Source: a virus. Taken from it: 64,000 nucleotides of DNA. The translations under genes and the position numbers were made by a program. Shown one piece after another: positions 20,917-43,240 of this stretch. The stretch is taken from positions 1-64,000 of IMG/VR virus record IMGVR_UViG_3300043803_002473; one strand, 5' to 3'. Below the pieces are notes generated by a model. It was not told the origin of the DNA. It was given only the letters and a program-made list of their open reading frames with translations, and made no database searches. The first letter of the stretch is position 1. The number at the start of each line of letters is the position of its first letter.

Positions 20917-22779
20917 ATGGCCATCACTACTGTAGGACGTATACTTTTAAAGCAGTATACGCCTAAACATTTACATCATTTAATAGATACTGAAATTTTA
21001 GATAAAAAAGGTATTACAACACTTTTTTCTAAATTAGTAGAATTAGAGCCTGACAATTATAGCAAGATAGCTTCTGATTTAACTAGACTAGGCTTCGAAG
21101 TTGCTACAAGACAAGGTACATCTATCACTTTAAAAGATCTTGTTTCACCGATAGACAAAGATAAAGTTTACGAAAAGTTTGAAGAATTTAAGGATAAGGT
21201 AGAAAAATCTGACGATCCGCTCAATATTAAACAACAGCGTATTTTTGATAAGTATAATACGATGATGGAAGATATAAATAAGTCTATTTTAGACGAAGGA
21301 TTAAAAAGCAATAAATCTTTGGCTAAAATTATTTTAGCAGGTTCTAGAGGATCACCATCTCAATACCGTTTCACCATCGCTACTCAGGGTGTGGTGGTTG
21401 ACGCAGAAGGTAATCCAAAAATGGATATTCCTGTAAAAAGTTCGTATGCTGAAGGGCTGAGCTTACCAGAATATCTTGTGACTTCATTCGGTACACGTAC
21501 TGGCGAAGTAGTCAAAAAGGTAGGTGTGGCTCAGGGCGGATATTCAAGCAAGCAATTTTCTAGAGCTTTGATGAATCTGCAAGTAACACAGGCAGATTGC
21601 GGAACACCTACAGGCATAACAGTGACAGTGGAAGACAAAGATTCCATAGGAGCCTTTTTAGCCGCCCCCGCAGGTAGCTATAATCGTAATAACGAAATAA
21701 CCGCCAAGATGTTGAGCGACTTGAGAAATAAAGGAATTAAATCTATATTAGTTAGATCTCCTATGACTTGTCGCGCAGGAAAACACGGACATTTTGGTTC
21801 AGTGTGTCAACTATGCGTAGGACAACGTGAAAAAGGGCTACCTGCCCCAGATACCTATATAGGTTTAGTAGCCGCAACAGCAGTTAGTGAGCCTCTAACA
21901 GAATATGCCATGAAATTGAGACACGGCGGCGGCGCAGCAACTTCTTTAGGTGGAACTGGAGGCTTTAAAGCAATAGATCAGCTAGCAAACATACCGAAAA
22001 CTTTTTTAAATAAATCCCCTTTAGCTCAGGAAGATGGAATCGTTACTTCTGTGAGGCCAGCTTCAGCTGGTGGTTATTTTATTAATGTTGGAGAAAAAGA
22101 ATACTATATAGGTATAGGACTTCAACCAAAAGTTAAAGAAGGTGATCGTGTTGAGCAAGGAGATTCTTTAAGTACAGGGCTTATAGACCCACGTGAAGTA
22201 GTTATGTATAAAGGTATCGGTGAAGGTAGAAAGTATTATGCTACTGCAATGAAGAGGGCTTTTGATGATGGTAATTTACATGTGAACCGTAGAAATTTTG
22301 AATTAATTGCTAGATCTGCAATAGACCATGTTAAAATTACGGACTCTGAGGGTTTGGGTAATTTTTTACCTGATGAAATTGTTTCATACACAGCCATGGA
22401 AAAAAACTATAAAACACGACCCTCTAGTAAAGATATGCGCGCAGATTTAACATATGGAAAATATTTAGAAAAACCTATATTGCATTATACTATAGGGACT
22501 AAAATAAATAGTCATGTAATAAAAGATTTAAAAGATCAAGGAATTGAGGCTGTTACAGTAAACGATAATCCTCCTAATTTTGAGCCTGTAATGGTTAGAC
22601 TGTTAGACGTTCCTGAGCATGTTGATGATTTTATGCATATTCTTTACAGTACTAACTTAGCTAAGCGCTTTAGTAATGCTGTTAACCAAGGAGCAGAGAC
22701 AGATATCCGAGGACCTAGCCCTATACCTGGATTGGCTTACGGGGTAGGCTTTGGAGAAACAAGCGCCTTTAAGAATTAG
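20917..22779 (+). CDS. rpoC: RNA polymerase beta-prime subunit, C-terminal half
   Basis: Completes the polymerase active centre. ILAGSRGSPSQYRF (139-152) matches the SGARGSxxQ segment. GEVVKKVGVAQGGYSSKQF (196-214) is the bridge helix. The trigger loop region is IGLVAATAVSEPLTEY then AMKLRHGGG (315-339), where His336 and Lys333 stand at E. coli H936 and R933. All four cysteines of the second zinc site are present: Cys228 (DCGT), Cys285, Cys297 and Cys300 (CRAGKHGHFGSVCQLC). It is separated from the beta-prime N-terminal half by three small genes and has a Shine-Dalgarno-like AAGGAG 10 bases upstream. The length (620) is shorter than the cellular equivalent, lacking C-terminal insertions. Confidence 0.93.
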   Translation: MAITTVGRILLKQYTPKHLHHLIDTEILDKKGITTLFSKLVELEPDNYSKIASDLTRLGFEVATRQGTSITLKDLVSPIDKDKVYEKFEEFKDKVEKSDDPLNIKQQRIFDKYNTMMEDINKSILDEGLKSNKSLAKIILAGSRGSPSQYRFTIATQGVVVDAEGNPKMDIPVKSSYAEGLSLPEYLVTSFGTRTGEVVKKVGVAQGGYSSKQFSRALMNLQVTQADCGTPTGITVTVEDKDSIGAFLAAPAGSYNRNNEITAKMLSDLRNKGIKSILVRSPMTCRAGKHGHFGSVCQLCVGQREKGLPAPDTYIGLVAATAVSEPLTEYAMKLRHGGGAATSLGGTGGFKAIDQLANIPKTFLNKSPLAQEDGIVTSVRPASAGGYFINVGEKEYYIGIGLQPKVKEGDRVEQGDSLSTGLIDPREVVMYKGIGEGRKYYATAMKRAFDDGNLHVNRRNFELIARSAIDHVKITDSEGLGNFLPDEIVSYTAMEKNYKTRPSSKDMRADLTYGKYLEKPILHYTIGTKINSHVIKDLKDQGIEAVTVNDNPPNFEPVMVRLLDVPEHVDDFMHILYSTNLAKRFSNAVNQGAETDIRGPSPIPGLAYGVGFGETSAFKN

Positions 22780-28465: not shown

Positions 28466-28987
28466 ATGAGTGCTATATTGAGAATAACCCGAAGTATAGA
28501 TAACCATATTTGGAAAATAACTTTTAGGTTAGACCCATCCAACTTTGCTGAGTTAGATGAACAACTTATGGCTAGGTTTGGTGAACCTGAAATTAACGTT
28601 GGTAACGTTATCGGAGGTCTGGACGCGTTGACTTCATATACTCTTCCAGAAAAATATATAAAGATACGTTCTGGGCTACCCTATACTCAAGAGTTTGATT
28701 CTCGTACTCCACCATTTGATACTTTTACTCGGAAAAAAGCAGAAGCTTATCAAGCCGCTTTTGTAACTCGTTATACACAGGCTCTAGCCGACTTGAGAGC
28801 GAACACGTTGTACTCGGCAGAATTGCTGTCAGCTCTCGAACATGCCTCCATTATCGACCAGCTACCAGTGCCCGCACCCGCACCCCTGCCCTCGGGTACC
28901 GGCGGCGGCGGAGGTGGCGGAGGTTCCGAAGGACCTGAAGAACCTCCTTTTTCTGGAGATTACGAATATTCAATAAATTTAAATTAA
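28466..28987 (+). CDS. Paralogous small virion-like protein, copy 1, with Gly-rich linker (173 aa)
   Basis: Shares a ~110-residue domain with the next gene (MSAILRITRSIDNHIWKITF; FGEPEINVG; LPEKYIKIRSGLPYT; AEAYQAAFVTRYTQAL). After that domain this copy carries an Ala/Pro run (PVPAPAPLPS), a stretch of nine glycines and an acidic tail. The DNA encoding the linker (about 28862-28925) is far more GC-rich than its surroundings. Function unknown; probably a minor head or decoration component given the location. Confidence 0.55.
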   Translation: MSAILRITRSIDNHIWKITFRLDPSNFAELDEQLMARFGEPEINVGNVIGGLDALTSYTLPEKYIKIRSGLPYTQEFDSRTPPFDTFTRKKAEAYQAAFVTRYTQALADLRANTLYSAELLSALEHASIIDQLPVPAPAPLPSGTGGGGGGGGSEGPEEPPFSGDYEYSINLN

Positions 28988-29018: not shown

Positions 29019-29405
29019 ATGAGCGCTATATTAAAAGTAACCAGAAACATAGATAACGATATTTGGAAAATAACTTTTTCCATAGACCCATTAAAACTCT
29101 CAGAAGCCGATAAGCAATTAATGGCTAAGTTTGGTGAACCTGAAATTAACGTAGGAGGTACTATCGATGGACCTACTATACAGGGAGAAGAAACTGAATA
29201 CACTCTTCCAGCCAAGTATATAAAAATTCGCTCGGGTTTACCCTATACTCGAGAGTTTGATTCAAAAACGACTCCGTTCAATACGCATACACAAGAAAAG
29301 GCAGAGGCTTATCAAGCTGCGTTTGTTTCTCGCTATACTCAAGCTTTGGTGGAATTGAGAGCTAACGAAGACACCTTTTCTGGGGAATTTTTAGTAAATA
29401 TTTAA
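29019..29405 (+). CDS. Paralogous small virion-like protein, copy 2 (128 aa)
   Basis: A tandem paralogue of the previous gene: the same order of motifs (MSAILKVTRNIDNDIWKITF; FGEPEINVG; LPAKYIKIRSGLPYT; AEAYQAAFVSRYTQAL) at about 60-65% identity by eye, without the Gly-rich tail. It has a short insertion after GEPEINVG (GTIDGPTIQGEE). The pair is a diverged tandem duplication. Function unknown. Confidence 0.55.
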   Translation: MSAILKVTRNIDNDIWKITFSIDPLKLSEADKQLMAKFGEPEINVGGTIDGPTIQGEETEYTLPAKYIKIRSGLPYTREFDSKTTPFNTHTQEKAEAYQAAFVSRYTQALVELRANEDTFSGEFLVNI

Positions 29406-29408
29406 TTT

Positions 29409-30311
29409 ATGGAAAACGATAAGAGAGCTTTTCTTATGCCTCTTTTAGGTGGCGCAATTCCCTTTGTTGGAGGACTGTATGGCAGCACAAAGGCCATGAA
29501 ATATCTTACTCCCAAAATAATGCGGTCAGCTAAACGTAATTTAAAGCGCAGGATAGCTACCGGAAAAAAACCTACATATTTAGGAAAAAAAACAAATGCT
29601 TTATTGGGTTGGGCAGGTAAAAAAGTCAACGCTGACAATCTTTCTAGCGGTTTAGGCTTCACCGCTGGCGGCACAGCTGGTAGTATTGTAGGAGCACCCT
29701 TATTAATGGATAATCGTACTGAAGAAGAACAAAATATGAATAAATATAGCGAACATAAATTATTCGGATTTTTAAAAGCCGCTATGCTTTCTGAACTATC
29801 TCTCGAGGATACGACTAAGCTAACTAAACTTGCCTTTGGTGACTATGACTTAAAGCCTGAAGATATAGCTAGAATTAGAATGGCTCTTCAAGAAGAAGGC
29901 GTTCCTGCCCCGTATAATGATCCTTATGGCCAAGCTAACACTAACTATAATGAAAATATATTAAAAGCACGCGATACAAGCCTAGATCAAATTCCAGAAG
30001 TAGAGGGGTCTTTATCCGCCGTTAGAAAAGGCGCTATTGGCGCAGGTATAGGTGGAGCCGCTGGCTACGGGTTAGGCAGCGCTTTAAACTCTCCAAATAT
30101 TTTAGGAGGTGGTGTACCCTATGGTTTAAAAAAACGCCTTCCTGGAGCCATGGGAACAAGTGGAGTTATTTTAGGAGCGCTTCTGAGTGCGCTACCTGCC
30201 TATAAACAAAAAGTAGACCAAGTTAAGGGTTTACAAAAATTAAATTATCCTGAAAATATGCAAACACTTATAAACAGTATAGACAAGGATAAAGCTTTAT
30301 TAGCCAGCTAA
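29409..30311 (+). CDS. Gly-zipper protein, probable virion-interior protein (300 aa)
   Basis: Three hydrophobic Gly-rich segments: residues 8-25 (LMPLLGGAIPFVGGLYGS), 82-100 (GLGFTAGGTAGSIVGAPL) and 209-226 (GAIGAGIGGAAGYGLGSAL), separated by basic and acidic helices. Near residue 115 it contains KLFGFLKAAMLSELSLED, a version of the helical mini-domain seen in the scaffold-like protein. It starts 3 bases after the previous stop. An ejection or membrane-pore role is inferred from composition. Confidence 0.45.
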   Translation: MENDKRAFLMPLLGGAIPFVGGLYGSTKAMKYLTPKIMRSAKRNLKRRIATGKKPTYLGKKTNALLGWAGKKVNADNLSSGLGFTAGGTAGSIVGAPLLMDNRTEEEQNMNKYSEHKLFGFLKAAMLSELSLEDTTKLTKLAFGDYDLKPEDIARIRMALQEEGVPAPYNDPYGQANTNYNENILKARDTSLDQIPEVEGSLSAVRKGAIGAGIGGAAGYGLGSALNSPNILGGGVPYGLKKRLPGAMGTSGVILGALLSALPAYKQKVDQVKGLQKLNYPENMQTLINSIDKDKALLAS

Positions 30312-31618: not shown

Positions 31619-33049
31619 ATGATTAAATTTAATTCTACCGCAGATTGGAGTTTTGACGTTCCTCCTGTAAGCATAGTTAATGATGCTCAAGACCTCAAGA
31701 AGGTAGCAGCAGTACAAGATGAGCTTAAGGTTGAAAAAACTGCAGGTCAGACAGATGTACACGTCATTGCCTTGGGGGCGTACGAAGGGATAGGGCAAAA
31801 CAGAAATGGTGATTTGTTTAAAGAGGCGGAATGCTTAAAACATTATAAAACTTTTGTTAAGTCCGGTGCCCGCAAAGCTGACGGTACTTATGATGGAAGG
31901 GCGTTGAACAGACACCATAAGAATAAACCTGAAGATCCTAAATACGGTAATATCAAGGCGGCGGCATATAACAAAGATATGCGTCGTATTGAGTTAGTTG
32001 TTGGGCTAGATAACAACAAATGTGCTGAAGAGATTCAACGACTTTCAAAAGGAGAACAAATCAACGTCTCTATGGCTGCTAAGGTAGCTAGCGACATTTG
32101 TACATGGTGCAAACATGAAGCTAAGGATGATCGAGGTCGTTGCGAACACATTCCAACTAGTATAGGTGAATTAAACAAACAGGGAGAAATGTGCGGGATG
32201 GACAATGTTTCACCACGTTGGTTTGAACTGTCTATTGTTGGACGTCCTGCAGACAGAATAGGTATGTCGTTAAAATTGGCACATACTTACGCACCTAAGC
32301 TTGCCTCTGATTATATGCAAATATATACAGGTTTTGTTCCTCCGCAAGAAATGCACGAATTTTTAATTTCTAAAAAAGCTTCTGATAAGCGTGGGTTGTT
32401 GCACAAGCTTTCTGAGATGGAGAAGCGTATCGAAGGCATAGCTAAAATAGGTCCAAAAGATTCTAAAGAAAAGTATATATCTAATGAGGCAGTTAAATTA
32501 AACTCTGGCGATAGGTTATCTCCAGAAGTCGTTGACGAGCTTAGAAAACACGATCCCTCAAAGCTACTAAAAGCTTTAGGAGAGCATGGAATAATATTTT
32601 CTCCTGAAGACTTTGTTGAATATCTTTTTGGAGATAAGTTAAAAGATAAATCTATAGTAGATAAGATGAAGGAACGTTTACCTCTAGGTTTTAGTAATTT
32701 AGCCGACGATGAAGTTTCTTGTGATCGCTCAGTCAACAATGAGAAATTCGATCCATCAGATTTCGGCGGTATACCTAAAGAATTAAAAGGTATACTTGGC
32801 AGTATATTCGATGAGCAATCTTTATTTGACCAGCCAGCTCATGGAAGAATTATGAGAATTACTATAATCGGTAGATCTCCCAAAAAATTGAAAGCCAGCA
32901 CCGATCCAGATAAGTTAGAAAAAGATGCGGCAGCCGAAGAACTAGCTCAGCAATATTTGACTTATAAATTAGCAGCCTTGCGTTATTTAGAAGAATGCGG
33001 TAGATTAGACGATCAGGTGCTTTTAAACGCCCTCATACAGAATCGATAA
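31619..33049 (+). CDS. Prohead (head maturation) protease with long C-terminal extension (476 aa)
   Basis: Expected to cut scaffold and internal proteins during head maturation. The N-terminal domain has the expected order: VHVIALGAYEGIGQNRNGD, RALNRHHKNKPEDPKYGNI (candidate catalytic His at 99-100), IELVVGLDNNKCAEEI, INVSMAAKV (candidate Ser151), then DICTWCKHEAKDDRGRCEH, a Cys/His cluster (Cys161, 164, 175) common after the Ser in proteases of large phages, and PRWFELSIVGRPADRIG. KVEKTAGQT at residues 38-46 just before the domain may be an autoprocessing site. The ~250-residue C-terminal half is unrecognised. It lies directly upstream of scaffold and capsid genes. Confidence 0.8.
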   Translation: MIKFNSTADWSFDVPPVSIVNDAQDLKKVAAVQDELKVEKTAGQTDVHVIALGAYEGIGQNRNGDLFKEAECLKHYKTFVKSGARKADGTYDGRALNRHHKNKPEDPKYGNIKAAAYNKDMRRIELVVGLDNNKCAEEIQRLSKGEQINVSMAAKVASDICTWCKHEAKDDRGRCEHIPTSIGELNKQGEMCGMDNVSPRWFELSIVGRPADRIGMSLKLAHTYAPKLASDYMQIYTGFVPPQEMHEFLISKKASDKRGLLHKLSEMEKRIEGIAKIGPKDSKEKYISNEAVKLNSGDRLSPEVVDELRKHDPSKLLKALGEHGIIFSPEDFVEYLFGDKLKDKSIVDKMKERLPLGFSNLADDEVSCDRSVNNEKFDPSDFGGIPKELKGILGSIFDEQSLFDQPAHGRIMRITIIGRSPKKLKASTDPDKLEKDAAAEELAQQYLTYKLAALRYLEECGRLDDQVLLNALIQNR

Positions 33050-33112: not shown

Positions 33113-34129
33113 ATGAATGAACATTTTTTAAATGGCTTTGTTAAAGCCGCTCAAGCCGCAGGAATGTCAAATGCTGAAATTGAAGCATTGTTAAAACAAG
33201 CAGAACCTATGGCACCACAAGAAGAAGCTCCAATGGAAGAAGCTCCAATGGAAGAAGCTCCAATGCCCGAAGCTCCAATGGGTGAAGAAGGCGGAGAGGA
33301 AGAATTGAATCAACTACTCGCTCAGTTAAGCCCAGAAGAGATTGAACAATTAGCTCAAGAGCTTGCTGCCGAGATGGGTGGAGAATCCGCAGGCTCTAAC
33401 GAATTAGAGCAAGTTCCTGAATTAGCCGCAGCCATAGAGCAACAGCTAGGCCAAAATCCTGAAGTAGCTGAAGCCACAGCTCCATCACCCGAGATGACAG
33501 AAGAAGTTATGGCTAAACAGAGTGCCATTAATTTTATTAAATCTGCTGAATATGTAGAAGGCTTTTTAGAGCAGGCTATTGGTCGTGGAATGAATTTGAA
33601 GCAGGCTGTAGAATTGTACGACAGCGCATTTAGCACAACTTTTAATCAACTTAAAACAAGTGAGTTGAAAGGTAATCAGCACAAACTAGATGTTGATGGT
33701 GACGGTAAAATTGAAGCTGACGATCTTAAAAAACTTCGTGCAGGTAAAGCCGAAGTTAAAGAAGCCGAGCTCAAAGGCGACCAACACAAACTAGATGTTG
33801 ATGGTGACGGTAAAATTGAAGCTGACGATCTTAAAAAACTTCGTGCAGGTAAAAAAAACGAAGTAGATGAAAAGACAGCTGCTTATTACGAAGGTGTTTT
33901 AGAACGCTGTCGTGAATACGGTATGACTGATGTTCAAGCTTTGGAGCTCGTAAAAAACGCAAAAGCAGCAAAATCGTTATTTGAAGGAGCTAAAGATATC
34001 GGAAGAAAAGCCGTTAATTATGTAGCAGAAAGACCAGCTCGTGCTGCAGCCATTGGTACAGGAGTTACTGCTGCAGGCCTTGTCGGCTATAATGCTTTAA
34101 AAAAAGAAGATAAAGAAGACAAAGAATAA
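33113..34129 (+). CDS. Scaffold-like acidic protein with two EF-hand loops (338 aa)
   Basis: Located between protease and capsid, where scaffold or prohead-core proteins occur. Order: a helical mini-domain (residues 4-30), four repeats of EEAPM (37-56), an acidic Gln/Glu-rich helix (60-135), a second mini-domain (147-172), two EF-hand/dockerin-like loops DVDGDGKIEADD at 193-204 and 228-239 with all calcium ligands, a third mini-domain (258-283), and an Ala-rich basic tail. The EF-hand units are encoded by two identical 69-base segments 105 bases apart. Many Lys-x-Ala sites suggest processing by the protease. The promoter and Shine-Dalgarno sequence predict high expression. Calcium binding is inferred from the loop sequence. 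Confidence 0.65.
   Translation: MNEHFLNGFVKAAQAAGMSNAEIEALLKQAEPMAPQEEAPMEEAPMEEAPMPEAPMGEEGGEEELNQLLAQLSPEEIEQLAQELAAEMGGESAGSNELEQVPELAAAIEQQLGQNPEVAEATAPSPEMTEEVMAKQSAINFIKSAEYVEGFLEQAIGRGMNLKQAVELYDSAFSTTFNQLKTSELKGNQHKLDVDGDGKIEADDLKKLRAGKAEVKEAELKGDQHKLDVDGDGKIEADDLKKLRAGKKNEVDEKTAAYYEGVLERCREYGMTDVQALELVKNAKAAKSLFEGAKDIGRKAVNYVAERPARAAAIGTGVTAAGLVGYNALKKEDKEDKE
33680..33853 (+). repeat. Identical 69-bp direct repeats encoding EF-hand units
   Basis: Copies at 33680-33748 and 33785-33853 are base-for-base identical, including synonymous sites, with a 36-base linker (period 105). This implies recent duplication or gene conversion inside the scaffold-like gene. Confidence 0.9.
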
Positions 34130-34132
34130 CTA

Positions 34133-34161
34133 TTTACAAAAAACAAAACATTCAATATAAT
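34133..34161 (+). promoter_or_regulatory. Near-consensus sigma-70 promoter before the second scaffold-like gene
   Basis: TTTACA, 17-base spacer, TATAAT; 5 of 6 and 6 of 6 matches to the bacterial consensus. The ATG at 34185 has TAGGAG 9 bases upstream, so this transcript has a short leader with a strong ribosome site. Confidence 0.65.
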
Positions 34162-34184
34162 AAAAAAATAGGAGAAAATATATT

Positions 34185-35162
34185 ATGGGCAAATTAACAA
34201 AACACGCCGAAGTTTTAACTCAACTGCATTCTTTAGTTAAGAAGCAGGCTGAAGAGGCACAAAAAAATATTTCTGGAGTTCCTGGGGTTGAAACAAAACC
34301 TGAGAGCATTAAGGAAGAACACGAAACCACCAATAAGAATTCTGTTGGTCCTGAGAACAATCCTCAAGGTTATTCTCAGAAACCCAGCTCAGATTCTTCT
34401 GAACCTGTGGCTTCACCTAAGACTGCTGAGAGTCTTGGTAATGAAATTTTAGACCTTATTCGTAAGCACGCAGATGCACAGGACTCCGCTACAGGCGTCC
34501 CAGGAAAAGACACCAATCCTGAAAAGATTGACGAGAAGAACGAAACAACCGACAAGAACAGTGTCGGCCCAGAAAAAAATACTCCTCAAACAACCGGCGA
34601 GCAAAAAGAAAGCACCGACGACAGTAAGCCAGTAGCTTCTGCTAAGAGTGCTGGTGAAATGCCTGAAGCTTTAAAAGAGCACTTCGAAAAGAAGGAAGGC
34701 AAAAAAGAAGATAAAAGTGAAGATCATAAAGAAGATAAGAAGGCTGAAGATGAAGTTACAGAATTAGCTTCTAAAGTTGCCTCTTATGAGCTTGGTCGTC
34801 AATTCTGCGCCGCTCTTCTCAAAGCCGCCTCTGAAGGCGAGCAAGATGAAGCTCAAATGGCTAAAGAAGCTGGACGTAGAGACTTGGAACTTCTCATTGC
34901 TCAAGCTGCTCAAGATCTAACTCCAGCTGGTGAAAAACAAGCTGAGGCCGAAGGTGCTGCCTATTTTGAACAAGTTTTAAAGCAGGCCGCTTTTGACCAA
35001 GCTGTTAAAGAAAACGAAGAGCTCAAAGCTAAAGTTGCTGAACTTACCTCCAAGGAAGCTGCTGAGAAGCAGGCTGAGGAGCAAGCCAACGCGCAAGCTG
35101 AGCTGGCCGATAAAGTAGCCAGCATCGTTCTCGAAAAGCTTAAAGCTGCAGCACAAGAGTAA
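34185..35162 (+). CDS. Second scaffold-like acidic protein (325 aa)
   Basis: Highly charged and mostly helical. Residues 28-165 contain two copies of a ~90-residue unit (GVPGVETKPESIKEEHETT and GVPGKDTNPEKIDEKNETT, each followed by KNSVGPE, a spacer, and PVASPKTAE or PVASAKSAG). The C-terminal 100 residues form a coiled coil (ENEELKAKVAELTSKEAAE). The paired PVASxK(T/S)A elements may be protease sites. It has a near-consensus promoter and strong Shine-Dalgarno sequence and precedes the capsid genes, fitting a scaffold or major internal head protein. Confidence 0.6.
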   Translation: MGKLTKHAEVLTQLHSLVKKQAEEAQKNISGVPGVETKPESIKEEHETTNKNSVGPENNPQGYSQKPSSDSSEPVASPKTAESLGNEILDLIRKHADAQDSATGVPGKDTNPEKIDEKNETTDKNSVGPEKNTPQTTGEQKESTDDSKPVASAKSAGEMPEALKEHFEKKEGKKEDKSEDHKEDKKAEDEVTELASKVASYELGRQFCAALLKAASEGEQDEAQMAKEAGRRDLELLIAQAAQDLTPAGEKQAEAEGAAYFEQVLKQAAFDQAVKENEELKAKVAELTSKEAAEKQAEEQANAQAELADKVASIVLEKLKAAAQE

Positions 35163-35165
35163 TTT

Positions 35166-35321
35166 ATGCAAGAGTCTCAAGGAGTTCAACCCTCTCTGGA
35201 ACTCGAAGCTGTAAAAGCTCTAACACAACTTTCAGACGAAGATAAAAGAAAAGTATTAGAGTATATCGAAAGTTTAGTAATCTTAGAAACAACTGTAACC
35301 AATGAACAAGGAAGTATTTGA
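35166..35321 (+). CDS. Small helical protein (51 aa)
   Basis: A short ORF, MQESQGVQPSLELEAVKAL and so on, with a single amphipathic helical core (LSDEDKRKVLEYIESLVIL). It starts 3 bases after the previous stop and overlaps the next gene by 20 bases, so it sits in a coupled string. The helix pattern resembles bacterial small 'L..L..E.k..vleyi..L' proteins, with no defined function. Confidence 0.5.
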   Translation: MQESQGVQPSLELEAVKALTQLSDEDKRKVLEYIESLVILETTVTNEQGSI

Positions 35322-35697
35322 AAAGTTTGAGGTTTTTACTAAAACTGCATTGGAAGAAATTGCAGACCTTAAACAGCAGTTGGGCAGTTTGAATGAAAAA
35401 GTCGCAGCAGAAAAAGAAGCTCGTGACGAAGAATTTGAACACGCTTTAAAAAAGGCAGCTACTGCCTTATACGATTCTGATTTTATTAATGACGAATACG
35501 ATAAGCGTCGTTTTATAAAGAAGGCTAAAGAAGACAATAAATATTTAGCCGAAGTCATACAAAAAATTTGCCAAGCCTCGGATGTATCAGCTTTTGGATC
35601 AGTGGCTAATATTAAAACAGCCGGTGATCTTCAGGATGATCCCGTAATGCGTAAAGCATTTGGTTATGATGTAAATTATAATTTACTCGACGAATAA
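35302..35697 (+). CDS. Small helical capsid-region protein (131 aa)
   Basis: Coiled-coil N-terminus (FTKTALEEIADLKQQLGSLN, EKVAAEKEARDEEFEHAL) and a more globular C-terminus (DINKRR-like EYDKRRFIKKAKEDNKYL). It has FTKTALE and NIKTAGD, versions of the Lys-Thr-Ala pattern. It lies between the scaffold-like and decoration genes and may be a scaffold or prohead-core subunit. Not recognised as a family. Confidence 0.5.
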   Translation: MNKEVFEKFEVFTKTALEEIADLKQQLGSLNEKVAAEKEARDEEFEHALKKAATALYDSDFINDEYDKRRFIKKAKEDNKYLAEVIQKICQASDVSAFGSVANIKTAGDLQDDPVMRKAFGYDVNYNLLDE

Positions 35698-35699
35698 TG

Positions 35700-35728
35700 T
35701 TGACGTAAATTAAAAATTTTGAAATAAT
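35700..35728 (+). promoter_or_regulatory. Promoter for decoration and major capsid genes, with ~100-base leader
   Basis: TTGACG, 17-base spacer, AATAAT. The predicted start is near 35735, leaving a leader of about 100 bases before the ATG at 35835, with AAGGAG ahead of it. The leader contains a more GC-rich stretch at about 35757-35795 but no convincing hairpin by eye. Confidence 0.5.
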
Positions 35729-35834
35729 TTATAGATAACTTCAGCAATACAACTAGAGCGGTCCTTGATCGGAAGCCAGTCTGAGAAGCAGAAGCAAAAA
35801 TAAAAACAAACAACAATAAGGAGAAAAATAAAAT

Positions 35835-36299
35835 ATGATTAACTTCAAAAAAGGTCCAGCTCTGAGCTTGGGGCAATCAGATAAAGTTGCCAAGCCAGCT
35901 TCTGGCGAAGCTATTGAAGCGGGTCACGTTGTTCGTATTGCTTCCAATGGAGAGGCCTCACTCGGTGTGAGCGAAACTCCAGCTGCAGACTTACTCGGAT
36001 TCGCTATTACAGACGTTACCGATGGTGATGCCATCGAGTCTGGCAAAATCGGCGTTTATCTTCTCGACGGTGCAACCATCGTTGAAACAGATAAAGCAGT
36101 CGGTGCAATCAACTCAACAAACTATCCTATCGGCGCAGCTGTCACAGCTAGCGAAGCAGGTTTAGTAGCTGTTGCCAGCGAAGGCGACAGAGTAATCGGT
36201 CAAGTCGAAGGTATTCGCAACCTCCCATCGGTCGAAGTGGTCAATGGAAGAAAAATTCAAGGAACCAGAGCCTTTTTAGGTGTTAAGCTTTCTGCTTAA
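35835..36299 (+). CDS. Head decoration/stabilisation protein (154 aa)
   Basis: Small, beta-rich and low in Cys and aromatics: repeated short strands with Gly turns (GHVVRIASNGEASLGVSET, GKIGVYLLDGATIVET, ASEGDRVIGQVEGI), as in capsid decoration proteins such as those with a beta-tulip fold. It lies immediately upstream of the major capsid gene, the usual place. It has its own promoter and strong Shine-Dalgarno sequence, and codons rich in C-ending forms, consistent with very high expression. Binding to the outer capsid is inferred. Confidence 0.65.
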   Translation: MINFKKGPALSLGQSDKVAKPASGEAIEAGHVVRIASNGEASLGVSETPAADLLGFAITDVTDGDAIESGKIGVYLLDGATIVETDKAVGAINSTNYPIGAAVTASEAGLVAVASEGDRVIGQVEGIRNLPSVEVVNGRKIQGTRAFLGVKLSA

Positions 36300-36322
36300 T
36301 CTAAACGGAGAAATTAAATATT

Positions 36323-37279
36323 ATGGAAAAAATCGCAGACGTTAAAGTATTCAACGATACATTCGTTGAAATGGTGAAAGCCGGTCAGGAAAAGCAAGCC
36401 GCTGTTTCTGCTCAGCAATTCACCCGTAACAAACTTCGTGAAGAAAGCTTCGCAGAGAAAATCATCACCCCAATCGACATCAGCAATGATGAACTCGATA
36501 AGGCTGAGAATCCTGAGTTGCTCGTTAAGTGGAACGATCGTGAACCTGATACTGCTCCAGCAACAACTGTGCCCCTCGGCGTAGTTCCTGATGCTGTTCA
36601 GTTCTTCGGTACACGCTATCCTTCCTACTTCACACGCATTACTTCACCTAAGTTCAACAAAGATATCGATCATCTTCGCACATACGATTACGACATCCGT
36701 GCAATCATGCTCGAAATCAGCACAAAAGATATCGCTACAGAAATCGACACTCGTTTCATCGAGCGTGTTGACAGCGTTATCGGAACAGCTAACACAGCTA
36801 ACCCTCTGAACGGTCTCGGCCTTCCTCAGAATGTTACCATCGCTGGTGGTATCACTCGTGAGAACGTCGCCGATGCTTTCAAGGCCATCAAGCGTCTCCG
36901 TGTTCCTTTCGGACCTGCTCAGCCAGACGGCGGCGAGTCCAAGGGCGTCATGCTCATGAACACAGTTACTGCTGATGACTTCGTTAAGCTCGATCGTAGC
37001 GAAGCTGGTGGTGACCTCTCTCAGGAGATGTACATCAACGGTCTTCCTGCTAAGACCATCTACGGTGTCAAGCCCATCTATACAATCAAGCGTGACTTGA
37101 TTCCTGATGGTGTTATTTACCTCTTCTCTTCTGAGGAGTTCTTCGGTAAATACTATCGCTTGCAGCCTCTCACAGTGTTCATGAAGAACGAAGCTTACTT
37201 CTTAGAGTACTTCCAATACATGAATATCTCGATGGCTATCGGTAACGTTAAAGGTGCCGTTAAAATCACCTTCAACTAA
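36323..37279 (+). CDS. Major capsid protein (318 aa)
   Basis: Position (after protease, scaffold and decoration genes, before a terminator), size and sequence character support the HK97-fold major capsid protein. There is a helical N-arm (VFNDTFVEMVKAGQEKQAA), an E-loop-like segment with REESFAEKIITPIDISNDEL, and strands ending YFQYMNISMAIGNVKGAVK. LMNTVTADDFVKLD and VIYLFSSEEFFGKYY resemble A-domain elements of large-phage capsids. The gene is strongly biased to C-ending codons (CTC, ATC, TTC), unlike most of the window. The ribosome site CGGAG lies before ATG 36323. Confidence 0.8.
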   Translation: MEKIADVKVFNDTFVEMVKAGQEKQAAVSAQQFTRNKLREESFAEKIITPIDISNDELDKAENPELLVKWNDREPDTAPATTVPLGVVPDAVQFFGTRYPSYFTRITSPKFNKDIDHLRTYDYDIRAIMLEISTKDIATEIDTRFIERVDSVIGTANTANPLNGLGLPQNVTIAGGITRENVADAFKAIKRLRVPFGPAQPDGGESKGVMLMNTVTADDFVKLDRSEAGGDLSQEMYINGLPAKTIYGVKPIYTIKRDLIPDGVIYLFSSEEFFGKYYRLQPLTVFMKNEAYFLEYFQYMNISMAIGNVKGAVKITFN

Positions 37280-37302
37280 TCGTAGTTGACAGTAAAAAAT
37301 TA

Positions 37303-37337
37303 GCAAGGGGGAGTGAATAACTCCCCCTTCGCTTTTT
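37303..37337 (+). terminator. Rho-independent terminator after the capsid gene
   Basis: Perfect 10-bp stem AAGGGGGAGT/ACTCCCCCTT (37305-37314 with 37320-37329), 5-base loop, then CGCTTTTT. It closes the head-gene transcription unit. Confidence 0.9.
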
Positions 37338-37342
37338 ATGGG

Positions 37343-37371
37343 TTCACAACACAGGATAACTCATATATAAT
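37343..37371 (+). promoter_or_regulatory. Sigma-70-like promoter, leaderless type
   Basis: TTCACA, 17-base spacer, TATAAT, directly after the terminator. The -10 box ends 6 bases before the ATG at 37378, so transcription should start on the ATG itself. No Shine-Dalgarno sequence. Confidence 0.6.
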
Positions 37372-37377
37372 GTAGTT

Positions 37378-37593
37378 ATGAATGCTGAACATATATTAGA
37401 AGAATTTATAAAATTTGCCCAATTCAATAACGCTATACCTGGACTAGGTCAATCAAATGTAATTCAACCTCAAATACTTTCTGGACAACCACCAAAAAGA
37501 ACTTCAAATGTAACTATGGAATATGGTGGAGATAGAAATGGAAATACTGTTACCGTAAAACCTGCGACTAACTCAAAAAAGGTAAATATATAA
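37378..37593 (+). CDS. Hypothetical small protein (71 aa)
   Basis: The N-terminal helix (HILEEFIKFAQFNNA) has the phe-hydrophobic-Lys-x-Ala pattern common to virion proteins here. The rest is Pro/Gly/Asn/Thr-rich (LGQSNVIQPQILSGQPPKR, TVTVKPATNSKK). It is the first gene of the connector/tail unit and probably translated from a leaderless mRNA. The function is unknown. Confidence 0.5.
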   Translation: MNAEHILEEFIKFAQFNNAIPGLGQSNVIQPQILSGQPPKRTSNVTMEYGGDRNGNTVTVKPATNSKKVNI

Positions 37594-37596
37594 TTT

Positions 37597-38040
37597 ATGG
37601 CGCTATCAATTTTAACTCCTGAAGAAATAAGATTATTTATGCTCGATAGAGCAGAAATGAATCCGCTTTTGTTAGGTATCAGATTCACTCCGGAAATGAT
37701 CGAGCAGGCTGTAGTTAATACTGTAGATTATTTTAATTTAATGAATCCTCCTATAAACGAATATTATACAATAGAGACATTTCCATTTAGGTCTCTTTTA
37801 TTAATGGGAGCTGCTGGGTACTTATTACGCTCCGCAGCCATCAACGAAGCCTCCAATCAATTAAGCTATGCGTCAGATGGTGTTCAAGTTAACGACAAAG
37901 ACAAAGCTCAGATATTTTTAACTATTGGCGGCAATTTATGGGAAGAGTTCAAACAGATGGCTACAAATATTAGAATAAATATTAATGTAGCTCAAGTATA
38001 CGGAACTAAACACTCAGAATACATTTATAGAGTGAGATAA
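37597..38040 (+). CDS. Head-tail connector candidate (147 aa)
   Basis: Helical protein (LTPEEIRLFMLDRAEMNPLL, FTPEMIEQAVVNTVDYFNLM) with a hydrophobic helix (SLLLMGAAGYLLRSAAINE) and a C-terminal Val/Tyr-rich tail. Size, helical nature and location between capsid and tail sheath suit a head-completion or adaptor protein of the gp6/DUF3199 kind, but no family motif is decisive. Confidence 0.5.
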   Translation: MALSILTPEEIRLFMLDRAEMNPLLLGIRFTPEMIEQAVVNTVDYFNLMNPPINEYYTIETFPFRSLLLMGAAGYLLRSAAINEASNQLSYASDGVQVNDKDKAQIFLTIGGNLWEEFKQMATNIRININVAQVYGTKHSEYIYRVR

Positions 38041-38041
38041 T

Positions 38042-38260
38042 ATGGGTAGATTCGACCAAAATTGTAATAGTTTAGCGCATACGGTAGAGGTGAATACTCT
38101 AAATGAAAAATTAGTAAGAAAATTTAAAAATATAAAAAAAAATAAAAGTTTAGGTTATAGTATAATGCAGCGCGTTATTGAAACTAATAATCCTGCAGTA
38201 TTTGCCTTTAAAACAAGTTCTTGGTTTGTACAAAAAATTAAAAATGTTTTTGATCAATGA
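38042..38260 (+). CDS. Hypothetical basic protein (72 aa)
   Basis: Short basic protein (KLVRKFKNIKKNKSLGYSIM) with a hydrophobic C-terminal helix (VFAFKTSSWFVQKIKNVF). It starts 1 base after the preceding stop and overlaps the next start by 4 bases. Not recognised. Confidence 0.5.
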   Translation: MGRFDQNCNSLAHTVEVNTLNEKLVRKFKNIKKNKSLGYSIMQRVIETNNPAVFAFKTSSWFVQKIKNVFDQ

Positions 38261-39075
38261 AACACAACCAGACATTTTCAAAAATTTTTATGATCCCAGA
38301 CTTTGTCCGTGGACATTTTATTCAATGGGAATTAGATACTTTTTTTAATGGAGAAAAACCATATAACTTTATTTTACAGGTGAGTCAAACATTAGACTTT
38401 TCTGAAATTGCTTATGAACTGGAAGTGGGCGATAGCTTTTTTGCTATAGATAACAGTAATTATAAACAATCTTGGTCTATGAATTATAATTATAGGATTG
38501 TTTTAATTACTGGCGACTATAACCGGTATTATTCTCCATCCTTGATATTTGGACAAACTGGTACATCTCAAAGAAAATATTCTATGGCCGGAGAAATCAT
38601 CAGGAAAGAACTTTTGCTTTGTCGTTACGCAGGACATCAAGCTTGGCTATTAAAAAGAAAAACCTATGGAACTGTTTCAGCAAAAACAGCAGTATATTTA
38701 GATCCGGTATCTGGTGTACCTATAGCGGATGAAAGAAATGTTGATTATGGTGTGGGCTTAGACGAAGGATTTTTTAAACCGGTAGCCTGTGCCTATACAA
38801 TAGACAGGGCTCATATGGATAAGCAGTTAGATCCTGCAGGATTAGGTGTGAAAGAAACCACAGATATGATTGTGAGAATGCCTGGCTACCCGTCAATAGA
38901 TTCTAGAGACATTATTTGTCCTAATCTGGATGGATGGCGTTATAATGTTTTAGCTAAAGATACGGTTTATTTTCCTGGCTCAGGTATACCTATAAGCCAG
39001 AAAGTTACCTTGCGTCTTATCCCACAAACAGATACTGTTTATAACATAGAAATACCTGCGAATTTAAATGAATAA
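38257..39075 (+). CDS. Neck/head-completion candidate protein (272 aa)
   Basis: Mixed alpha/beta protein rich in Tyr and Asp. Its position between the connector candidate and the sheath suggests a neck or tail-terminator role. Segments include FMIPDFVRGHFIQWELDTF, ending in a beta-rich C-terminus (QKVTLRLIPQTDTVYNIEI). The N-terminal ~90 residues look like an immunoglobulin-like or fibronectin-like fold (FILQVSQTLDFSEIAYEL). Not assigned to a family. Confidence 0.45.
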   Translation: MKHNQTFSKIFMIPDFVRGHFIQWELDTFFNGEKPYNFILQVSQTLDFSEIAYELEVGDSFFAIDNSNYKQSWSMNYNYRIVLITGDYNRYYSPSLIFGQTGTSQRKYSMAGEIIRKELLLCRYAGHQAWLLKRKTYGTVSAKTAVYLDPVSGVPIADERNVDYGVGLDEGFFKPVACAYTIDRAHMDKQLDPAGLGVKETTDMIVRMPGYPSIDSRDIICPNLDGWRYNVLAKDTVYFPGSGIPISQKVTLRLIPQTDTVYNIEIPANLNE

Positions 39076-39796
39076 CGAAAGTGATATTATTTTTAATACG
39101 GTCGGAGGAACAATAGAGCCATGTCCACCACCGGTAGGTTATGTAAATCCTCAGTATAGGGACATAAATACTTGTGAAGATAAAAATAGAAAATTAATGT
39201 TGACTCCCTGGACGGTGCAGAACATTTGCTATGAACTCATAGCTAATTATATGTTAACTAATGATCCTAAAGAACAGGGATATGTTTTTTCTCAACGCTA
39301 CGATCGCGATCCCAGAAAAACTCAAATATTTTTAGATATTGTTTTAAATTATCGTGACGATGTGGTTCAAAAGAGACCGGCAGTGTTTGTTGGAAGAGGA
39401 CCTGCACAATATAGATATCCTACAATGAACCAACAAATAGGATCAAATTCACCCGAGTCAGAAAAAACAAAATTGGCTATTATTACTATGCCAATTGTAG
39501 TTACAGTTATAGGTACAAATGTGGGATTTACAGAGCAAGTTGCCGAGTATATTTCAAATGGTTTTTTATTTTATTTAGAACAAATTAGAACAGATTTTAA
39601 CTTTCGTATTTTTAGACTGGAAGATGTAGGTAATCCTACGCTATACTTAGAGTCTAAAGATCATTTCGCTATTCCATTAAATTTAATGACTTCTTTTGAT
39701 CTGGGCTTTACAATCAAGGGAGATCATCTAAAATTAAAGACTATCGGATATACAGTGTTTACGAGTTGTGTGGAATCACCCCTTTTAAACCAGTAA
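39068..39796 (+). CDS. Tail-terminator/neck candidate protein (242 aa)
   Basis: Overlaps the previous gene by 8 bases. N-terminal Pro-rich strand, then a mixed domain with QNICYELIANYMLTNDP, RKTQIFLDIVLNYRD, and LAIITMPIVVTVIGTNVGF, followed by EYISNGFLFYLEQI. An alpha/beta domain with a long strand and helix directly before the sheath gene fits tail-terminator or tail-completion proteins (gpU/gp15-like), but sequence alone does not prove it. Confidence 0.45.
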   Translation: MNNESDIIFNTVGGTIEPCPPPVGYVNPQYRDINTCEDKNRKLMLTPWTVQNICYELIANYMLTNDPKEQGYVFSQRYDRDPRKTQIFLDIVLNYRDDVVQKRPAVFVGRGPAQYRYPTMNQQIGSNSPESEKTKLAIITMPIVVTVIGTNVGFTEQVAEYISNGFLFYLEQIRTDFNFRIFRLEDVGNPTLYLESKDHFAIPLNLMTSFDLGFTIKGDHLKLKTIGYTVFTSCVESPLLNQ

Positions 39797-39805
39797 AAAA
39801 AAGAT

Positions 39806-39834
39806 TTGCAAAGAACAATAAATTAACTTAATAT
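39806..39834 (+). promoter_or_regulatory. Promoter for the tail sheath gene
   Basis: TTGCAA, 17-base spacer, TAATAT, with TTAGGAG before the ATG at 39864. The flanking sequence closely matches the promoter at 33057-33085 (shared AAATTAA-x-TTA-x-TATAA-x-AAATAA). Confidence 0.5.
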
Positions 39835-39863
39835 AACAAATAACAATTTAGGAGAAAAAAATT

Positions 39864-42800
39864 ATGGCATACATCGTACCAAAAGTATTAATTCAACAGG
39901 AGTTTACACAGGTTCCTGTCTATCGTGAGTTCCCAATGGCCGCTTTCATTATCGGCCCACAATACGCTCTTTTCCGCTATGACGTGGAAGACGAAAAAGA
40001 ATTCACAAAAGTCATGCACCCAACCGATGAAGCTCTCGGTAACAAATATCAGAAATCTGATGATGTTACTTACAGCTTCCCCAACGTTCCTGCGGGTGGC
40101 AAAGTTGATAAAGATTATACAAAAGTTGTTTTTGAAGATGCTGCAGCTAAATATTTCCCTAACGCTGACCTCGGTACAGAAGATCTTCAAGAAGGCGCTG
40201 ACGATGTTACATTAGTTCAAAACAGCGCAGGTGTTACATATAAAAACAGAGTTCGTTTTCCTCAGCACCTAACAGATGGTCACGGATATGCCCGTTCGTC
40301 TTGGTTCTCTAATCGTGACGTCCGCAAGGGCGACATGATTCGTTTGACTGATGAAAATGGTCTTCAGTTGACTAGCACAATTAAAGCCGTTCTTCCCGAA
40401 ACTCCTATCCAGAACGAAGATCTGGCTTCTCAAGTCGGTACAGCTGCGGCTATCAAGAAGAGCAATATCGACCCAGGTCCAGACGGAACCGTTTATGCGG
40501 GAAGCAATCGCTTCACTGCAGAATCAGGTAACTTCACAAAAGATCTCGAAGGAGAGTTTTTAACTATTCCTGGCGAAATCAACCAAACCTTCAAAATTCT
40601 TGCTGTTATCAGCCCAACAGAGCTTCTCCTTGATGAAGCTTCTACAGAAAACGAAGGTGGCCTTGCTTGGAGAATCGGTGGACAGTGGGCCGACACCAGC
40701 AACGCTGAGCCTCAGGTAGCTGACCTTGATCTCGAATTTGAAAGCGATATCGCTGGCCAAGTTGCCGGTGGATGGATGCCAACAATCGATCCAGATGGAG
40801 ATACCTACGTTGGTTACAAACATCTTCGCATTGTTAACGACATTTATACAGTCGAATTGACCCATTTTGACGGTAACTTACCTACCGCCAGATTCACCAT
40901 TTATTCCAATAGCGGTGCATTTGCTCCTAAGCAATTTCGCGCACTTTCAGGAACTAAGCTCACAGTTGATTCAGCTCGTGGCAATAACCTCGTGCTCGAT
41001 TTCGCTCAGTCCTCAGATTGGGCAGTCGGCAAATCTGTTAAAGTTATTGCAAAAGCTCAAGTTGAGTCTGCAGGCTTCGACGCTTCTGCTCCTGGTGCTC
41101 TAGGCTACACAGGTACAGCTGATCTTGTTTACAAGATTACAGTTATCCGTGGTGGACAATTCCTCAAAGCCGATAAATCCAATATCGACGTTGCTGCTAA
41201 AGTTGCAGTGACTTCCTCAGGTATTGATTCTTCTGGTTCTGTTTTGGTTGAGAAAAACGTTCCTTTCGCTATCGGTAGCTATGGCGTTTTCGCCACTTTC
41301 ACAGCTGGTTCAGTTGGTGAAGGTCTCGAAGAAGGCTTGGTTGCTGGAGACGTTTTCTATCTCGGAGCTAAGGCTGCAAGACTTGGACCTTACACAATCA
41401 TTGAATTGAATGATGAGCTTCCTGCTCCATTCCTCTATTCCGATGAAGATCCAAATCTCGACGTAGAACTCTTTGCAGTTCTTCCTAAAGCTGAAATACC
41501 TGCACTGAGAGATTTAGTCGAAGGTACAGCTAACTGGACACAACTAGAAAATTATATCACTATTTATGCTGACTCTACTACATACTTGTCTAGCTTGGTA
41601 ACTGGAGAAACTCCTGCGAGATTACCAGTCGAGCAAGCTCGTGTTTTCGTACAGCATAGAGATCTTTTACAAGACAACGTTGTCTCTATCGGAAGCGTCC
41701 GCTCTGGCGGTCAAATCGAGAAAACTCTCGGTCTTATCCATCCAGATAATCCACTCGCTCAGGGTGTTAATGACGCAGTTCTCAACGCAAACGGAGCAAT
41801 CGTGTATTACATCGGTGTTGAAAGTGATGACCTCGCTGGATATCTCGCCGCTATCGAAATTGCCAAGAAGTCTGACAAAGTTTATAGCTTTGCGCCAATG
41901 ACTTTTGATCGTGCAATTCAAGATGCAGTTGTATCACATGTTAATGCCTACAGCACACCAGAAGTTGGTCGCTGGAGAATCGCATGGCTCTCTGCTAAAG
42001 ACGACAAAACAAAAGTTATCTACGACAAGAAGGAAAATGGTTCACCATGGGTCGGAACAGTCACTGACGATCTTCAAGTTCCAGGTTCACAAAATAGATT
42101 AGTAACAATTCAAGGTGCTAAGTTTATTGATGCCGGAATTCGTCCAAATGACTCAGTCAGATTCAACTTCCGTCTTAACCCAGATGGACAGCTTGCTTAT
42201 GATGAGTTGTTCGTTGACGAAGTCAGAACTCAAACAACCCTAGCACTCACAACCAGTGTTTCAGCTCCTATCAACAGCCCAGTTAAGATGGAAATTGTCC
42301 GTCATTGGACTCGCGATGAAAGAGCAACAAACCTCTCATTAATCGGTGGCGAATACAACAACCGTCGTGTACGCGTCGTGTTCCCTGACGAATACAAGTA
42401 CGAGAGTGGTGATGGTGGCATGGTTACAAAGCAAGGCTACTTCATGGCCGCTGCTCTAGCCGGTCTCCGTTCTGGAGTTGTTCCTCACCAAGGTTTGACA
42501 AATACTCAAGTATTGGGTGCCTCTGACCTGAGCAAAGTTGTTAATGAATTCACTCCTGATCAGCTCAATGTAATGGCTGAACAAGGTATCTGGATCGTAA
42601 CACAAGAAATTGTCGGTGCTACCCCATACGCCAGACATCAGCTTACAACAGATGAGAGAAGCCTCAATACCTCAGAAGATTCAATCACAACAAACGTTGA
42701 CAATATCAGCTATGCCTTGAAACATACTCTCGAGCCATACATCGGTACTTACAACGTTAACCCAGAGAATCTGATCGTTATTAGAGATGCTATCGTCGGC

Positions 42801-42986
42801 GAACTGTCATTCCGTGCCACAAGCACAAGAACAGTCCGTGCCGGTAATCAGCTCACCAGCTTCTCTGCTGAGGATGACATCCTCCTACTTCAACAAAATC
42901 CAACATACAAGGATCGCATTGATGTAGAAGTTAAGTTGAACGTTCCATATCCTCTGAACTACATCAACTTGAAGCTGATCGTATAA
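39864..42986 (+). CDS. Contractile tail sheath protein (1040 aa)
   Basis: Builds the contractile outer tail tube. The last ~250 residues carry the conserved sheath core: VVFPDEYKYESGDGG, GYFMAAALAGLRSGVVPHQG (as PSGxVAG...R in other sheaths), EQGIWIVTQEIVGATPYAR and a C-terminal KLNVPYPLNYINLKLIV strand. The N-terminus (VPKVLIQQEFTQVPVYREFP) holds the linking strand. At 1040 residues it is larger than T4 gp18 (659), with extra beta-rich inserted domains between ~150 and 560 that would decorate the tail surface. It has its own promoter and a strong Shine-Dalgarno sequence; codon use is shifted to C-ending codons as for the capsid gene. Confidence 0.88.
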   Translation: MAYIVPKVLIQQEFTQVPVYREFPMAAFIIGPQYALFRYDVEDEKEFTKVMHPTDEALGNKYQKSDDVTYSFPNVPAGGKVDKDYTKVVFEDAAAKYFPNADLGTEDLQEGADDVTLVQNSAGVTYKNRVRFPQHLTDGHGYARSSWFSNRDVRKGDMIRLTDENGLQLTSTIKAVLPETPIQNEDLASQVGTAAAIKKSNIDPGPDGTVYAGSNRFTAESGNFTKDLEGEFLTIPGEINQTFKILAVISPTELLLDEASTENEGGLAWRIGGQWADTSNAEPQVADLDLEFESDIAGQVAGGWMPTIDPDGDTYVGYKHLRIVNDIYTVELTHFDGNLPTARFTIYSNSGAFAPKQFRALSGTKLTVDSARGNNLVLDFAQSSDWAVGKSVKVIAKAQVESAGFDASAPGALGYTGTADLVYKITVIRGGQFLKADKSNIDVAAKVAVTSSGIDSSGSVLVEKNVPFAIGSYGVFATFTAGSVGEGLEEGLVAGDVFYLGAKAARLGPYTIIELNDELPAPFLYSDEDPNLDVELFAVLPKAEIPALRDLVEGTANWTQLENYITIYADSTTYLSSLVTGETPARLPVEQARVFVQHRDLLQDNVVSIGSVRSGGQIEKTLGLIHPDNPLAQGVNDAVLNANGAIVYYIGVESDDLAGYLAAIEIAKKSDKVYSFAPMTFDRAIQDAVVSHVNAYSTPEVGRWRIAWLSAKDDKTKVIYDKKENGSPWVGTVTDDLQVPGSQNRLVTIQGAKFIDAGIRPNDSVRFNFRLNPDGQLAYDELFVDEVRTQTTLALTTSVSAPINSPVKMEIVRHWTRDERATNLSLIGGEYNNRRVRVVFPDEYKYESGDGGMVTKQGYFMAAALAGLRSGVVPHQGLTNTQVLGASDLSKVVNEFTPDQLNVMAEQGIWIVTQEIVGATPYARHQLTTDERSLNTSEDSITTNVDNISYALKHTLEPYIGTYNVNPENLIVIRDAIVGELSFRATSTRTVRAGNQLTSFSAEDDILLLQQNPTYKDRIDVEVKLNVPYPLNYINLKLIV

Positions 42987-43240
42987 TGGATCACTTTAAA
43001 GCAGGGTTTCTAAAATATGCAACAGAGTGTGGAGTGCCTGAAAATCGGGCACTCCACCTTTGGAAAAGAGCTCTAGCTTATCCTGGTACAGAAGGAGTAT
43101 TCAAAAACTTAAATATTTCTACTTCAAATACACCAGAGCAAGCACAGACTCCAGAAGAATTAGACTCTTTGTCAAAATTGATGGAGCAGGAAAAAATAAA
43201 CGCAGAATTACAACAAATTAAAACTCAATTAGGAATTTAA
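42986..43240 (+). CDS. Small protein with virion helical mini-domain (84 aa)
   Basis: Residues 3-30 (HFKAGFLKYATECG then VPENRALHLWKRAL) match the mini-domain found three times in the scaffold-like protein at 33113: aromatic-x-x-Gly-Phe-hydrophobic-Lys..., Gly, then Ala..Leu-x-Lys-x-Ala. The rest is polar, Pro/Glu/Gln-rich with a short coiled coil. It overlaps the sheath stop by one base and the next start by one base. Function unknown; perhaps incorporated in the virion. Confidence 0.5.
   Translation: MDHFKAGFLKYATECGVPENRALHLWKRALAYPGTEGVFKNLNISTSNTPEQAQTPEELDSLSKLMEQEKINAELQQIKTQLGI

Follow-up and report, generated by a model that had tools for sequence, protein, structure and literature searches.

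A predicted two-helix motif at the N-terminus of otherwise unrelated phage proteins and its candidate role as a capsid-targeting tag

The capsid targeting sequence (CTS) of phage T4, for which 10 residues of IPIII suffice (PMC9026906), and the N-terminal 30 residues of P1 DarB, which target a reporter to the capsid (PMC9024508), are the closest described tags. In phage P22, the C-terminal helix-turn-helix of gp8 anchors inside the procapsid and contacts the N-arm of the capsid protein (PMC9965877), and in the large phages phiKZ and SPN3US many head and ejection proteins lose N-terminal propeptides to a maturation protease (PMC10052503, PMC5694885). Here we report a 27-residue motif in a genome fragment of a large uncultivated phage, referred to as the window (64,000 nucleotides, positions 1 to 64,000 of IMG/VR record IMGVR_UViG_3300043803_002473, a viral contig of 121,470 bases with mechanical gene calls). 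Proteins of the window are denoted by the first position of their genes.

We identified four full copies of the motif in the window, three in the 33113 protein and one in the 42986 protein (Table 1). A preliminary description had already proposed these copies, with the fourth at the N-terminus of 42986, and reciprocal models built solely from relatives in other viral records, which is a cleaner test than leaving one copy out, confirmed them. The 33113-family model detected one further protein in the genome, 42986 (10.4 bits, E 0.0035; runner-up 1.5 bits), and the 42986-family model detected the 33113 protein at 14.5 bits (runner-up 0.8 bits). Leave-one-out models within the window recovered the other three copies above chance, at 8-10 bits against best scores of 5.6-6.7 in 20 shuffled proteomes, and copy 1 was weak, with 3.2 bits against the model of the other three. 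As the first search for relatives with the 33113 protein returned mainly EF-hand repeats, those loci were used as a negative control; among the 7,276 ORFs of these loci, 79 viral ones retrieved by their EF-hand similarity, the motif model gave no match, and it scored at most 5.8 bits on their reversed sequences. An iterated motif model collected 57 distinct copies from the first set of capsid-gene relatives, in which G5 was invariant (57/57) and A10 and G14 were each retained in 56/57. The score of copy 1 would fit a similarity due to chance or to low-complexity helical composition; such an origin is contradicted by the cross-family models, the reversed and shuffled controls and the near-invariant G5, A10 and G14, and we regard it as extremely improbable.

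Table 1. Motif copies, predicted sites and neighbouring genes of the head module, in window coordinates
Feature	Position	Strand	Sequence	Remarks
Diverged motif copy inside 29409 protein	29754..29834	+	HKLFGFLKAAMLSELSLEDTTKLTKLA	at gene fusion point
Head maturation protease	31619..33049	+		candidate enzyme for predicted Lys-x-Ala sites; phrog_18299, E 4.8e-9
33113 protein, acidic, core/scaffold-like	33113..34129	+		motif present three times; gene lies between those of protease and capsid
Motif copy 1	33122..33202	+	HFLNGFVKAAQAAGMSNAEIEALLKQA	residues 4-30 of 33113 protein; profile models, AlphaFold hairpin
Predicted protease site	33533..33547	+	FIKSA	directly before motif copy 2; conserved in 14/14 relatives
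Motif copy 2	33548..33628	+	EYVEGFLEQAIGRGMNLKQAVELYDSA	residues 146-172 of 33113 protein; aligned in 15 sequences
Two EF-hand/dockerin-like calcium-loop repeats	33662..33856	+		between motif copies 2 and 3; Pfam
Motif copy 3	33881..33961	+	AYYEGVLERCREYGMTDVQALELVKNA	residues 257-283 of 33113 protein; profile models
Scaffold-like protein	34185..35162	+		four conserved hydrophobic-hydrophobic-Lys-x-Ala sites; 14-15/15 relatives
131-residue protein ahead of capsid gene	35302..35697	+	FVKxA, FVKKA	family sites conserved in 14/15 relatives
Major capsid protein	36323..37279	+		28% identity to annotated Arash capsid protein; weak phrog_2522 match, E 0.017
Half-motif at N-terminus of 37378 protein	37390..37419	+	HILEEFIKFA	without the motif's second helix
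42986 protein, 84 residues	42986..43240	+		motif is the N-terminus; immediately 3' of tail sheath gene; conserved in relatives
Motif copy 4	42992..43072	+	HFKAGFLKYATECGVPENRALHLWKRA	residues 3-29 of 42986 protein; profile models, AlphaFold hairpin

For copies 1 and 4, AlphaFold predicted a helix-turn-helix with local confidence of about 77-93 and helices at 3-15 and 20-29 in the first and at 2-14 and 19-31 in the second; the full 33113 model, with a shallow alignment, was poor overall (pTM 0.34). The hairpin could be assigned to no family when the motif and its host proteins were scanned against PHROGs and Pfam, tblastn against isolated phages gave no match with either the 33113 protein or a consensus 27-mer, and Foldseek with the 42986 model against viral structures returned nothing significant. 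TAL-effector repeats, suggested by a PDB profile search, were rejected as relatives; these matches cover 14-15 positions only and sum many weak repeats, and the motif did not align full-length with the 34-residue DNA-reading repeats.

The 33113 family was detected in all relatives having the region, with 2-3 motif copies in each. The 33113 protein itself scored above the curated Pfam cut-offs for EF-hand_1, EF-hand_5, EF-hand_6 and Dockerin_1 in its putative calcium-loop repeats; similar repeats occur in about 80 other viral loci that lack the hairpin. The conserved sites of the neighbouring 34185 protein start at residues 4, 211, 225 and 264, and the same protein (34185-35162) shows an internal duplication with GVPGVETKPE and GVPGKDTNPE blocks. 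Further upstream, 28466-28987 and 29019-29405 encode tandem paralogous small proteins of one gene family, and parts of a multi-subunit RNA polymerase are encoded at 16755-19742 and 20917-22779, upstream of the head module.

Looser versions of the motif had also been suggested for the 29409 and 37378 proteins, and their fates differ. Over residues 118-300, the 29409 protein shows 47% identity with a separate protein of a relative (L005, 3589-4152) with the full motif as its N-terminus; hence the 29409 copy is a true diverged homologue. The 37378 protein, on the other hand, was missed by the motif model and does not contain the full hairpin; it shares only the short FhKxA element.

Capsid-gene searches led to 15 related IMG/VR loci, from relatives of up to 204 kb, which are not mutually independent, so that z-scores over all loci are inflated. 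The motif was present in 15/15 whole records searched, this record included, and is far more widespread than the preliminary description could see. Among the related viral records we counted 90 distinct proteins with the motif, whose bodies fall into 46 unrelated clusters, and in 69/90 of these proteins the first copy lies at most 20 residues from the protein start; it is thus a short N-terminal sequence shared by otherwise unrelated phage proteins. A phage record holds up to about a dozen copies. Several records have a separate variable locus of 4-9 tagged genes, in which closely similar N-termini are joined to unrelated bodies, and small head-module proteins beyond the 33113 and 42986 families also start with the motif. 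A degenerate DNA pattern scan of viral contigs revealed further carriers, some with the first helix only.

Some of the tagged proteins carry additional features. DUF3008 matches were found in two of them, and a protein in L130 (6322-7575) combines a C-terminal motif with a weak R2K ATP-grasp match. In L132 (9561-10328) and L158 (3823-4269), N-terminal segments of the form MPA[RK]SEAQQRLMG... end in LPEKKA immediately ahead of the motif. In the relative L133 (11359-19759), the tagged genes adjoin nuclease genes together with two DUF1501 genes and a gene for a papain-like protease, a neighbourhood which possibly points to the host.

The position of the 42986 gene, directly 3' of the sheath gene and adjoining tail genes, counts against a head cargo and would suit a general oligomerisation or protein-interaction module without any packaging role, for example in tail or DNA-ejection complexes, as would the tagged clusters that lie near nuclease and other accessory genes in relatives. 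We consider such a module improbable, since the copies are concentrated in the head module and in a core protein, and among the conserved tail-gene families of the aligned loci the motif was found in none but the small 42986 family. The diversity of the tagged proteins, which resembles that of delivered effectors, could also suggest a signal for import, for example into a phage nucleus, or for ejection by way of the tail, and the window resembles phiKZ-like jumbo phages in carrying genes for parts of a multi-subunit RNA polymerase. However, the motif is repeated within a core protein, and a search for tubulin, as distinct from the nuclear-shell protein, detected no homologue in nine records; a signal of this kind is very improbable.

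Within the tag lies a shorter element, hydrophobic-x-Lys-x-Ala, which is common to most head-core proteins. It stands at the end of the first helix in 60/65 N-terminal copies versus 17/41 internal ones, and at the end of the second helix in 48/65 N-terminal copies. In the head genes of the window, 33113 excluded, the element occurs 36 times versus 12.9 expected from shuffling; tail genes are not enriched (11 vs 15.3), and in early genes it is slightly in excess (33 vs 23.2). Control patterns made by shifting, reversing or substituting the element stay close to their expected counts. The stricter form hhKxA makes up 14 conserved columns across the head families, versus at most 4 for control patterns, and these columns are located in the 27055, 29409, protease, 33113, 34185, 35302 and 42986 families. 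A literature search in open-access full texts turned up no mention of a prohead-protease site of the Lys-x-Ala type.

This element may be a site of the head maturation protease or, alternatively, a docking surface that is left uncut, in which case the hairpin would stay on the protein and keep it attached to the capsid or core of the mature virion. The latter would agree with the predicted hairpin of the 27-mer, as both Lys-x-Ala elements fall within its helices, and with the retention of A10 even in copies without K8. Moreover, 5/65 N-terminal copies lack the first site, and the capsid site of the window's clade lacks the hydrophobic residue, both of which count against a cut. Against a docking surface, the element is conserved without the hairpin in many other head-core proteins, with four to six copies in each scaffold-like protein; the signal is limited to five residues, with no long periodic pattern; and the element sits at the boundary of the capsid N-arm. 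The internal copies of the core protein mostly lack Lys at position 8 and have a conserved FIKSA-type site ahead instead, as expected if the element is a cut point and not a structural need of the hairpin. An uncut docking surface is therefore unlikely in our view, although less so than the readings as an interaction module or as an import or ejection signal.

Isolated relatives were reached only through the capsid, the protease and a structural protein; capsid and protease searches led to two distant ones, Salmonella phage Arash and Vibrio phage D69, with identities of 27-34%. In their head genes hhKxA is enriched just as strongly (Arash, 14 vs 3.0 expected; D69, 13 vs 2.7), and the looser pattern occurs 38 times versus 7.0 expected in Arash. 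Residues 25-29 of both capsid proteins read LVKEA or LTKEA and immediately precede the conserved N-arm. This site aligns with the EKQA at residues 23-26 of the window capsid protein, which faces VKEA in Arash and is predicted to mark where the mature N-arm has its edge. The scaffold-like proteins of Arash (gp223) and D69 contain similarly patterned hairpins in tandem (protein E 7e-5 and 0.028), and a short local match between Arash gp221 and 29409 (E 0.05) falls exactly on the motif. Mass spectrometry of Arash virions detects gp221, gp223, gp226 and RNA polymerase subunits (PMC10585845); the published table gives coverage, not mature N-termini. Among well-detected Arash virion proteins outside the head module, the excess of N-terminal sites was not significant (9 vs 6.7 expected).

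The motif had been suggested to be a capsid-targeting or docking module. Its N-terminal position on many unrelated proteins, its presence in the head module, its repeats in a core protein between the protease and capsid genes, the predicted sites at helix ends and the hairpins of like pattern that isolated relatives carry in their scaffold-like proteins all favour this suggestion; packaging itself is the part that we infer, together with cleavage, the position of the cut and the docking partner. Judging from sequences, structure models and analogy, we think it fairly likely that a scaffold-type docking hairpin has been reused as a capsid-targeting tag which the maturation protease removes, as with the T4 CTS. 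The hairpin would dock proteins into the assembling head, with another hairpin, the 34185 scaffold or the capsid protein as candidate partners. Copies inside core proteins such as 33113 would form part of the internal scaffold, and a single N-terminal copy on a cargo protein would lead to co-assembly with the core, so that one phage could load many different proteins. The 31619 protease would then cut after the Ala of hydrophobic-x-Lys-x-Ala, which would release the cargo and dismantle the core.

A portable tag of this kind would cover dozens of different proteins in a whole lineage of large phages. Tentatively, the lineage, up to the Salmonella and Vibrio phages, may share a portable, scaffold-derived cargo tag together with a head protease of previously undescribed Lys-x-Ala specificity; this broader proposal is open to more doubt than the tag itself. 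If it is true, a single sequence search would name likely packaged proteins that are otherwise of unknown function, the predicted protease specificity could be checked in the existing Arash virion mass spectra, and laboratories would gain a useful tool for bringing arbitrary proteins into a large capsid by means of 27 added residues.

The likeness to the T4 CTS (IPI-IPIII) is one of function, reached by inference and not drawn from sequence homology. In both cases a short N-terminal tag stands on otherwise different proteins and the tagged set varies among phages; the CTS contains a prohead-protease site and the hairpin tag a predicted one. However, the CTS has about 10 residues and is cut by gp21, whereas the present tag has 27 residues in two helices with one or two predicted Lys-x-Ala sites, and its copies are also repeated inside a core protein, unlike those of T4. 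The P1 signal was shown for the one protein DarB, whereas many copies occur per record here. With P22 gp8 the motif shares a small two-helix hairpin, here predicted, but that of gp8 is C-terminal with no protease sites reported, and the present tag is mostly N-terminal. In SPN3US, most propeptides are 111-254 residues long with sites ending in Glu, in contrast to the 27 residues and predicted Lys-x-Ala sites found here. Capsid-loading labels are thus known in other phages, and the present tag looks new in sequence and unusually widespread, with a variable cluster of tagged genes in its relatives.
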